A stretch of DNA of 64,000 nucleotides from Thozetella sp. PMI_491 (taxonomy: Eukaryota > Ascomycota > Sordariomycetes > Chaetosphaeriales > Chaetosphaeriaceae): contig MU270024.1 in the NCBI GenBank assembly GCA_021432635.1, positions 1,040,906 to 1,104,905 of the forward strand, in the 5' to 3' direction. Shown piece by piece: positions 49,092 to 53,244 of this stretch; position 1 is the stretch's first letter; every line of letters starts with the position of its first letter. A program made the translations under genes and the position numbers. Under the pieces are notes generated by a model. It had not been told where the DNA came from. It saw only the letters and a program-made list of their open reading frames with translations, and did not search any database.

Positions 49092-52026
49092 ATGGCCCTT
49101 AGGAGCGCCGATGGCGACTTATTTCTCGCCGTTCTTCCTCTCTTTGTCATCAGTCTGCCTCCCGGGCCTCCCCCGCCCGACGGTGCTGGATCGGAGCCGG
49201 ACTGGGGAACGGACCTTGGGCTGCTCGACCTGTACGATGCGACCACTAACCTGAGGTTTGAGATCAAGGAGATGCCCAAAGTCTTCACCGAGGAGCGCGC
49301 GGCATGCACACTCACCAAAGACAACCATCGCAAAGGAGTAGAAGCCCTCGAGGAGGTTCTCTATGCCCTAGAAGACCTGGTTGACTCGGAGATCGCCGTG
49401 CCGTTTCCCAACAGCAAGCTTCCTAAACTAGATGCTCTACGGGAAAAAATCCTCTCGTCCAATTATTCCTTGGCAGCCCTGGGTGTGGAGTCGCCACAAC
49501 TCCCCGGCGAAGTTCAACAATGGACGAGGCACATCACCTACGACAGAGGATGGAAGAAAGCGGTCCAGTACCGACGCACCTTCAAAGAGGCCCAGCGATT
49601 TAACCAGGCAATGCGAGAAATATTTGAAGCCGAAGACTCATCCTTGTACCCCATGACCCAGCTCTTTGAAAAATCGAGAGACGAGGACGACCGGTCATCA
49701 GCCGATGACATACAGGACAATGCTGAGGTCCAAGCCGCCAAGAAACTGAGCGATGCGGCCGCAGCCATAGCTAAATCAATACTCGAGGTGCGCGAGGCCT
49801 GCCAGCCGCCTCACACGCTTCTCATAAGCCTTAGCGGCTTCGAGACCCCAGAGATCAAGTCGATTATGACGCTATGTGCCCAGACGAAGTCGGAGCGATG
49901 GCAGTGGGTGCATTGGACCTGGGATTCGCCGATGGTCAAGTGCGGTGCAGATGAAACGAGCGATAGCAAGTGCGGTAAACTGAAAGTCGCGCGTAAGCAC
50001 AAACGGAGATTGCACGTCCGACTAAACCGCGACGGAACCTGGTCCGACAGCGCGGGGACTCGCGAGACCAACTTCGCGACTGTGCCGAACATGACTCTGG
50101 AGGAGGCATTAAATCCAGAGAAGGACAGGTTATCTATGGCTCCCGAGCTCCTGAAAAAAGACCGACTTGAGCTCGCCATCCGCATTGCCCGGTCACTGCT
50201 GCACCTACTTTGGAGTCCGCTGCTTCAGAGCCCCTGGAAGTCCGAGGCCGTCTACGTGTACCCCAACAAGGAGCCGTCGCGAGGCAGTAACACACCGATG
50301 GATCTTTACATCACCGCGCAGGTCGTCAAGGACTACTGGCCGGATGAAACCACCCAAGTATTGGCGATGAAATCTTTCGTCCTCTATCTCGGCGCCATGC
50401 TCTGGGAACTATTGTTTGTTCGCAAGGTGACGGTGACGCCTGAGGATGAGGAAGAAGACGAAGACGAAGAAGAGGACGAGTCGCTGTCGCTCTACAATGC
50501 ACTCAACCGCGAGCAATACAACTCGCGCAACTCCTTCGTCGACGAGCCCTGTCTCAATGTAATTTCGAATTGTTTGGACTTATATGCCGACGACGAGTCA
50601 GACCAGGCAAAGTTTCGCAGTCAGGTCTACCATCGTGTGGTAAAGCCTCTGAGGGACTATTTCAAGGTTAAGTACAACCCGGTGGCACGGCGTAGTGGCC
50701 CTAAGGGACTAGCATCGATTCCGTCCGCTATCACACCCTCTGCACACCCTATAGAGCTTTTTTCCAGGCACATGGGCCATAAGCTAGCGACAGTCCCGGT
50801 GCCACATCCAGCGATAGAGCAGTCTACCTCAAAAACACCACTGCTGGTACCAATGAAGGCACCCGTTCCATCATTGGATACGTCACGCACAGCAACGCTG
50901 CTGGCATCCCGAGGAAATGTCAGTCGGTCGATCTCGCTCGCCTTGGTGAATGTCGGCTAACACTCAGAGGCACAGATCCAAGACAGCAACGCCTGGCTGG
51001 AAAGGTTTGACCTGGTGAATGAGCATCTCAAGAGTTTCGGGGAGCTCAAGCGGCCGGTGCGAGTCGCAATACTAGATACGGGATGTGACCTCGAAGGCAA
51101 TTTCTTCGCCGGGCCAGGAATCGATCACACTGACTGTTTGAGCGAAAACTGGCTGGACTGCGTCGATGGAACATCAGAGCCAGTCGACGAGGATCCAGAA
51201 AGACACGGCACCTCCTTGACCGCGCTTGCACTGCGTTTGCTCCCAAGCCCATCCTCCTTATATGTTGTGCGTGTGGCAAGAAGTGCAGAAGAGCTCCTTG
51301 CCGCCAAACAGCAAGTCGCCCGAGTAAGCGTTTGCATATACCTCTGAACCACACTCCTGCAAATCTCGGGGTACCATTGGGCTCCGCTAATACTCCTTGT
51401 AGGCAATTATTCACGCTGTTGAGGAGTGGGACGTTGACATCATTTCCATGTCATTTGGCTTCGGTGTCGAGGTGCAAGTAATCCAGAGCGCCATCGCGCA
51501 GGCAGAGAAACACAAAGGCGGCAAGGTGATGTTCTTTGCCGCCGCTAACAACGACGGCTTGAACCAACCCGAGATGTTCCCTGCCTTCTCCGAAGCCGTC
51601 ATATCCGTCCGTGCCACTTCGTGTACCGGCACATTCGACCCGCGCTACAACCCCGACATCTGGGGCCACAAAGCGGGACTCCCTCAGTACGGGACCCTTG
51701 CACTCGATGTATCGTGCGGCTGGTCCCACGGAAGCCTCGTTCGAGGGGGTTGCTCGGTAGCGACACCCATTTTAGGAGCCATCGCTGCCGTCGTCATCTC
51801 GTTCGTCGAGCTGAATGTCGAGAGCTTCTTCCTGAATGCTGCCGAACTTGTCCGGACACGAAGGGGGATGTTATCAGTCTTCCGCGCCATGACGGAGAGC
51901 CAGGGTCCAAAGGAGCGCCTATACCTAGCACCCTGGCAATTGTATGAACATAGTAATGGCAAGCCGGTGTACATGCTCGGCCACGCGCTCTCAAAGATAC
52001 CACAGATAGATGGATGGACGGCGTAG
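49092..52026 (+). CDS. DUF7580-subtilase (peptidase S8) protein, HET-Q2-like protease candidate
   Basis: Exons 49092..50918, 50976..51323 and 51403..52026 give 932 residues. Residues 20-600 resemble the fungal DUF7580 region: KKDRLELAIRIARSLLHLLW, then PWKSEAVYVYP, SFVLYLGAMLWELLF and ISNCLDLYADDESDQAKF; an acidic run (EDEEEDEDEEEDE) interrupts it. Residues 637-860 are a subtilase domain with Asp643 (VAILDTGCD), His686 (RHGTSLTAL), the oxyanion Asn774/775 (FFAAANND) and Ser843 (GGCSVATP). All catalytic residues are present, so it should be active. Such NLR-like or prion-type fusions to S8 domains are known partners of gasdermin-like genes; in Podospora the S8 protein HET-Q2 cleaves gasdermin-like HET-Q1. 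A gasdermin-like gene follows 369 bp downstream. The first intron uses a weak GTCAGT donor but a GCTAAC branch. Confidence 0.88.
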
Positions 52027-52395
52027 ACCGCTCGGAGATGACTTGGTAGGATGAACATAAGGTAACTAGCATTTATGTACGAATATATACATATATACCC
52101 TCTAGCATAGCCGATAGCATTATCAATGGCGATTTTCCATCCTTCATGATGTGGGCCCAGACGATGAAGGAGCGATGCGCGCGCGCCAATAACAACAGTT
52201 ACATTGGTAGAGCCAATGCAGGCTACTTCAACAGCAGCTCAGCCGCTTCTCGTTCCTGGAGAACACAATGAGCGGCTGCAGAAGTGCGTTTGTTACCTTC
52301 CAACCCCCGCTCGGTGCTTGAAATTTCGTCTTGCCCATTTCTGCAGACTTATTCGACCCGCAAATATTGGATTGGAGCTCAAGCCTACATCAAAT
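52027..52395. other. Intergenic spacer between subtilase and gasdermin-like gene
   Basis: This 369 bp stretch holds the subtilase 3' end and the promoter or leader of the downstream gene. The frame stays open upstream of 52396, but that part lacks family features. Confidence 0.55.
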
Positions 52396-53244
52396 ATGAC
52401 GTTCACGCAGAACCCCACCTACTTCCTCGCTCCGAATTGGACGTTCCTGCGGGGAGGGAAAATCGCGCTCGGCAGCATCATCGTGGACCCCCTCAAGCCT
52501 CACATCCCACTTACCCGGTTAGATCCGACCCAGCCGCAGCCGGCGACGACCACGGTGCCCGAGGCCAACTGGCGCCTATCGCTGGAAACGGCGACAAGCA
52601 CCACGTTAGGTGTGTGGGCCACGTTCCTAGACAATGTGCGCCTATCGCTGTCGGCGCAGCGCGAGCGCATCAAGAACCACCACTTTACCATGACGAGCCT
52701 AGAGACGGTCTACTACACCGACGACCCCACAGACGAGGAGCTGCAGGCGCGCTGCCGTGATGCCAAGGTGCGCAACTTCATGCGTTTGGATAGCACCCTC
52801 TGCAAGCCCGTGTACATGATCACGGGCCTCAAGATCGCCACCGGCTTTAAGCTCGAGGCGCTGGACAGCACTGCACACGAGGGAGCTGCCGAGTTGGGCG
52901 GCCAGGTCGCGCCCGAGGTCTCAGTGGGCGTCAAGGCCGGGGCGTCTGGCTCGTCCAAGGGCGAGATCGGCTTCGAGTCCGGCAGTGACATCGTGTTCGC
53001 GTACCAGCTGATCAAGATCAAACCCAAGGGCTGGGGCAAGGACAAGAAGCTGGTGTGGGACGAGTTCACCAACTCCAAGGCGTTCCTGTCGGATGGGAAT
53101 GCGGCGCGGCCGGCGGAGCCCGAGCCCGAGGGCGAGTTGGACTCGATCTTGGAGGGAGACTTGAAGGAGCTTAAAGACACTGAGATAGTAGAAGTCGGCG
53201 GTGCCGTAGTTGCCTTCAAGCCTTCGAAACAGCCTTCGACATAA
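52396..53244 (+). CDS. Gasdermin-like pore-forming protein (HET-Q1/RCD-1 type) with acidic tail
   Basis: One exon of 282 residues from the ATG at 52396. Strand features match the gasdermin N-terminal fold: an opening with WTFLRGGKIALGSIIVDPLKP (in part residues 15-35), a Thr/Ser-rich amphipathic stretch (LSLETATSTTLGVWATFLDNV), then KPVYMITGLKIATG (137-150), a Gly/Ala-rich hairpin region and SGSDIVFAYQLIKIK (195-209). In animal gasdermins the equivalents are the 'vYvvtEv' strand and the 'ipxGsxlAyrvxqL' strand. Residues 232-282 are a short acidic tail, as in fungal gasdermins that are activated by removal of a C-terminal piece of about 5 kDa. There is no signal peptide, so it should act on the inner plasma membrane. 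Upstream lies the S8 protease; downstream an NLR. Length matches HET-Q1 (about 280). Confidence 0.72.
   Translation: MTFTQNPTYFLAPNWTFLRGGKIALGSIIVDPLKPHIPLTRLDPTQPQPATTTVPEANWRLSLETATSTTLGVWATFLDNVRLSLSAQRERIKNHHFTMTSLETVYYTDDPTDEELQARCRDAKVRNFMRLDSTLCKPVYMITGLKIATGFKLEALDSTAHEGAAELGGQVAPEVSVGVKAGASGSSKGEIGFESGSDIVFAYQLIKIKPKGWGKDKKLVWDEFTNSKAFLSDGNAARPAEPEPEGELDSILEGDLKELKDTEIVEVGGAVVAFKPSKQPST

Follow-up and report, generated by a model that had tools for sequence, protein, structure and literature searches.

A DUF7580-S8 protease gene and the adjacent gasdermin gene form a probable HET-Q1/HET-Q2-like cell-death module in Thozetella sp. PMI_491

Two neighbouring genes of Thozetella sp. PMI_491, one encoding a subtilase and the other a small gasdermin-like protein, raise the question of whether they form a cell-death module comparable to het-Q1/het-Q2 of Podospora anserina. 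Both genes lie on the forward strand of the window, the whole stretch of 64,000 nucleotides that was analysed (C10:1040906-1104905, in a genome of 72.3 Mb and 157 contigs). HET-Q1 is a protein of 278 residues from which a protease removes 40 residues (~5 kDa) after F238, and HET-Q2 is an S8 protease of 388 residues (PMC10989679). Among fungal gasdermin genes, about 80% are clustered with a protease gene and about 60-63% with one for an S8 protease; the gasdermin-linked proteases are described as multidomain sensors, with kinase-like domains among their fusion partners (PMC10197012, PMC12881547, PMC10989679). These papers, like the others mentioned below, are cited from excerpts. The evidence presented here makes it probable that the two genes make up a fungal cell-death module of the HET-Q1/HET-Q2-like (Q1L/Q2L) type, in which a gasdermin has the DUF7580-S8 protease as its dedicated activator.

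The protease gene (49092..52026, + strand) runs from an ATG at 49092 to a stop at 52024-52026 in three exons (49092-50918, 50976-51323 and 51403-52026), and the spliced model is open across 932 codons. Since the genomic frame contains an in-frame TAA at 50958-50960, this model needs intron 1 (50919-50975, +; 57 nt, GTCAGT...CTAAC...CAG), which takes out the stop. The length of this intron is divisible by 3 and an alternative acceptor is found at 50969; an acceptor at 50967 gave the wrong frame and was replaced by the one at 50975. Intron 2 (51324-51402, +; 79 nt, GTAAGC...GCTAAT...GTAG) restores the frame and leads into the last exon, and donor, branch point and acceptor are present in both introns. 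In the paralogues on C77, C18 and C45, the matching regions are likewise broken into separate frames near both intron places, whereas C96 has a single unbroken frame across the place of intron 1 and C19a is unbroken across that of intron 2. Each intron is therefore common to some paralogues, not to all.

The 932-residue protein is composed, from N to C-terminus, of a region of about 200 residues, a DUF7580 domain (49737..50663, +; residues 216-524; Pfam E 1.2e-34, 120.9 bits for a cut-off of 27) and a Peptidase_S8 domain that spans intron 2 (51057..51801, +; residues 637-858; Pfam E 3.6e-9, 36.8 bits for a cut-off of 21.8). The earlier note had described a DUF7580-S8 protease with intact Asp643/His686/Ser843, and this description holds: both Pfam domains score above their cut-offs, and D643 (51075-51077), H686 (51204-51206) and S843 (51754-51756), all on the + strand, are read in the translation of the spliced model, where the oxyanion residue N774 is also present.

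A protein-kinase fold, pseudokinase-like, is predicted for the DUF7580 domain. The best match of its profile in the PDB is a maize pseudokinase (E 7.1e-9), and the 50 matches listed by Foldseek and by VIA for a structure model of residues 201-549 all carry kinase titles, with no Foldseek E value at or below 0.001. This model, built on 20 alignment rows, has a mean pLDDT of 71.1; values reach at least 88 in 13 of the 18 ten-residue blocks of model residues 151-330, and the N-lobe part is poorly predicted. Furthermore, a motif check of residues 201-549 of the window protease returned none of the HRD, DFG or VAIK-like strings by which an active kinase is recognised. Among the 20 rows, a loose string search, irrespective of position in the kinase, retrieved an HRD-like string in one and a DFG-like string in six. 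The term DUF7580 was not found in the literature searched, a limited collection of papers.

The gasdermin gene (52396..53244, +) is one open frame of 282 codons that follows the protease stop after a gap of 369 bp on the same strand, exactly where it had been reported. Its product has no match in Pfam. With phmmer, HET-Q1 is matched at E 9.6e-6 and the RCD-1 chains at 0.14-0.38; a profile search against the PDB retrieves RCD-1-1 at 5.3e-26 and HET-Q1 at 1.1e-18, and gasdermins account for all eight matches at E<=1. HET-Q1 ranks first in the single-sequence comparison and RCD-1 in profile and fold, and the sequence kinship places the protein among the fungal gasdermins (fGSDM). The predicted structure shows the gasdermin N-domain fold, with fold matches that include the bacterial 8sl0 and 9a84. 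The gasdermin assignment, first made from strand pattern and context, was thus borne out when checked by sequence profile and predicted structure: judged by sequence, profile and modelled fold, the 282-residue product is a HET-Q1/RCD-1-like fungal gasdermin.

Residues 232-282 (53089..53241, +) form an acidic C-terminal tail of net charge -7, predicted to be a removable inhibitory part, and the pLDDT of the gasdermin model falls below 50 at residues 232-256. Past the column of residue 231, tails of 42-63 residues and net charge -5 to -17 are found in all 14 aligned gasdermin rows, window included (a tail-less frame on C11 near 96.6 kb, described below, lies outside this alignment); the cores in the same alignment have net charges of -2 to +8. 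In length, these tails are comparable to the 40-residue piece cut from HET-Q1. Just ahead of the disordered part, F230 (53083-53085, +) is a candidate P1 residue, by analogy with HET-Q1 F238. We infer this equivalence because the solved HET-Q1 chain is only 232 residues long.

Recurrence of the pair was examined within the same genome. Three protein queries against the genome gave at least 19 gasdermin loci, C6:341911 and C6:342491 being counted as one, and Pfam searches of the genome at E up to 0.01 gave 112 S8 and 47 DUF7580 matches, which are exon pieces and not genes. A Pfam S8 match lies within 10 kb at 13 of the 19 gasdermin loci, and a DUF7580 match within 12 kb at 15 of them. The random expectations for 19 places are about 0.6 and 0.3, respectively (from per-place upper bounds of 0.031 and 0.016, which apply to Pfam matches), and the adjacency is therefore not due to chance. 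Two further S8 domains, on C77 and C7, were missed by Pfam or fell just below its cut-off; found by other means and sought only near gasdermins, they bring the loci within 10 kb of an S8 domain to 15/19. One of these is C66, where the counted S8 match is 9.9 kb away and goes with another DUF7580 match, and where the 2.4 kb fetched beside the nearer DUF7580 match contain no S8 domain. Since the S8 match at C66 belongs elsewhere, the strict count of gasdermin loci with a DUF7580 + S8 partner is 14/19 and not 15/19. DUF7580-S8 is the usual architecture of the gasdermin partner in this genome, and the resemblance to the Podospora het-Q2/het-Q1 pair that the earlier note had pointed out gains support from these 14 loci, all from a single genome, at which relatives of both genes are neighbours.

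According to the coordinates, four of the 14 pairs are on the same strand, six are convergent and four divergent, so the arrangement is not operon-like. Nor is the link between protease and gasdermin obligate, since no gasdermin was found in the 9.9 kb fetched around each of the DUF7580-S8 loci C125 (L046), C95 (L047) and C96 (L048), and four gasdermin loci (two on C11, C19 at 327k, and C1) lack a nearby match to S8 or DUF7580. The sequence fetched at six S8 loci without a close DUF7580 match contained no gasdermin either. Moreover, an S8 match lies within 3 kb of only 19 of the 47 DUF7580 matches, so DUF7580 is also used without S8. A CHAT protease was rejected as partner in the window; the genome has 15 CHAT matches, of which one (C6:77309) is about 4 kb from a gasdermin, C6b.

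The two proteins have also diverged in step. The comparison comprised the 14 of 19 loci for which both proteins were available, C66, the two C11 loci, C19 at 327k and C1 being excluded because no S8 sequence was available for them; S8 rows consisted of the last-exon frame (in C19a and C7 a longer one), and the C7, C131 and C6a gasdermins the longest frame only. Gasdermin and S8 distances are correlated over the 14 pairs (Mantel r 0.709, no value as high in 20,000 permutations, p 5e-5), over the 11 loci where the gasdermin frame is intact (r 0.658, 0/20,000, p 5e-5) and when each sister pair is represented by one locus (n=9, r 0.541, p 6e-4). At 10 of the 14 loci, gasdermin and S8 have the same nearest neighbour, and the maximum-likelihood trees have five of six sister pairs in common (C10-C77, C49-C6a, C45-C19a, C22-C6b and C7-C131), with modest support (4 of 11 inner branches starred for the gasdermin, 2 of 11 for S8). 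Of the relatives found, the C77 pair is closest to both window proteins, with 28% and 40% identity over the kept columns. Given the correlated distances and the shared sister pairs, the two genes travel together and diversify together. This co-divergence can be explained by duplication of whole cassettes alone and is no proof of physical contact.

These observations suggest the following mechanism. The gasdermin would be held inactive by its short acidic C-terminal tail, and the 932-residue protein, with its N-terminal region, pseudokinase-like DUF7580 and C-terminal S8 protease, would be the activator. The DUF7580 part would sense or relay a trigger, upon which the S8 domain would cleave the gasdermin close to where its core ends, possibly at F230, so that the tail is lost. 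The freed core could then insert into the membrane, form pores and cause cell death, most likely as part of defence or of the recognition of non-self.

Other explanations were considered. The window pair sits in an immunity-gene neighbourhood: a HET-domain gene (45183-47735, - strand; Pfam HET E 3.9e-21) is found upstream, and downstream lie frames, perhaps of one gene, for a DUF676 hydrolase and a NACHT protein (~53905-57584, +; 54360-54884 and 54987-57584), with Pfam E values of 1.4e-28 and 1.7e-10 for NPHP3_N/NACHT and 3.9e-6 for the DUF676 hydrolase. With such genes on both flanks, protease and gasdermin might be next to each other only because immunity genes are crowded here, and the gasdermin might actually be controlled by the NACHT gene or by no gene at all; however, a DUF7580 + S8 partner at 14/19 gasdermin loci, diverging in step with the gasdermin, makes this improbable. 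We give slightly less credence still to the idea that the gasdermin is activated as RCD-1 is, by a different allelic variant after cell fusion and without proteolysis, which would make the protease a bystander or a regulator of something else. In structure and profile the gasdermin matches RCD-1 best, and RCD-1 itself is not controlled by cleavage (PMC12881547), but HET-Q1 is the best single-sequence match, and three things point to cleavage: the acidic tail, a protease partner that recurs and co-diverges, and the precedent of HET-Q1.

Finally, the stop at 50958 is genuine in the genomic frame, and C96, which is unbroken across this place, indicates that not every family member has intron 1; the protease gene could then be broken and the pair a decaying copy. 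This is the least probable of the three, and we rejected the TAA as gene-breaking: it is excised by a canonical intron that keeps the frame, the catalytic residues beyond it are intact, and C77, C18 and C45, if not C96, are split near the same place. A gasdermin module activated by its DUF7580-S8 protease thus remains the preferred reading.

Among known systems, HET-Q1/HET-Q2 is similar in its gasdermin of near-equal length, its S8 subtilase partner and its short C-terminal tail. The packaging differs, as the earlier note had anticipated: at 388 residues (PMC10989679), HET-Q2 is too short to hold a DUF7580 besides S8, whereas the window protease has 932 residues with DUF7580, and it is by this described length that the latter is set apart from the short het-Q protease without an N-terminal module. 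HET-Q1/HET-Q2 is an incompatibility system; a further difference is that the window pair has both genes side by side in one genome. The excerpts of PMC10197012 cite het-Q1/het-Q2 as a case in which a sensor has become constitutively active through a rearrangement, and those of PMC9262711 contain remarks on het-q linkage and genotyping. HET-Q2 could be a sensor-less relative of which the window gene would be the complete, regulated form, on a comparison of described lengths rather than of sequences.

In the two-gene Q1L/Q2L clusters of fungi (Clave et al. 2022, known here through excerpts of the reviews PMC10197012, PMC10989679 and PMC12881547), a gasdermin gene lies less than 10 kb from a multidomain S8 protease gene thought to be sensor and activator; likewise, an S8 domain with intact catalytic residues lies well within this distance of the window gasdermin. 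The parts of these reviews consulted stress TPR, ANK, WD40 and NLR fusions; they do not name DUF7580, nor do they give the number of Q2L proteases with a domain of this kind. RCD-1 of Neurospora crassa resembles the window gasdermin in its core, but acts by the pairing of two allelic variants without cleavage (PMC12881547). Bacterial clusters, according to the excerpted reviews, also combine a pore former with nearby protease genes, and bacterial gasdermins are among the fold matches, but their sequence kinship to the window gasdermin is remote (profile E 1.1e-5). Gasdermin/S8 clusters, kinase-like fusions included, are already described in these reviews, and the window pair adds a member.

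The stimuli that activate the fungal sensors of such death proteins are called a major open question in the excerpts of PMC12881547. If the usual protease architecture of this genome carries a pseudokinase, this question becomes concrete: does the pseudokinase restrain the protease, and to what does it bind? With its many co-diverged cassettes, this genome also offers a ready panel for tests of protease-gasdermin specificity. More speculatively, and with rather less than even confidence, the genome may hold at least 14 "pseudokinase-S8 plus gasdermin" cassettes in which DUF7580 domains are fungal immune pseudokinases that gate subtilases, each protease being matched to, and diversified with, its own gasdermin. 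Each would act as an inflammasome-like receptor in a single protein, with a pseudokinase in the place of an NLR, and the short HET-Q2 a sensor-less, always-on remnant.

Several further observations were made. On C6 (69.4-78.1 kb), a gasdermin lies between a DUF7580-S8 gene and a CHAT-protease frame, the latter at a distance of about 4 kb. On C66 (178.9-183.2 kb; L064/L066), a piece that is hydrolase-like by eye, with no Pfam match, lies between the gasdermin and a DUF7580 piece. The C11 frame near 96.6 kb (L033:58-2145, +) has 696 residues. Its N-terminal part is, by eye, hydrophobic and multi-pass-membrane-like, and the frame closes with a gasdermin domain that lacks the usual acidic tail. 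This may be a gasdermin fused to a membrane anchor, or two genes may share the frame. Within the window, a Jacalin-like lectin domain (43168-44241, -; E 2e-9) lies near the immunity genes, and a 752-residue frame (29287-31545, +) has a weak match to the caspase domain (Peptidase_C14, E 0.001, 19.2 bits for a cut-off of 21.4) and is a possible metacaspase-like protein.
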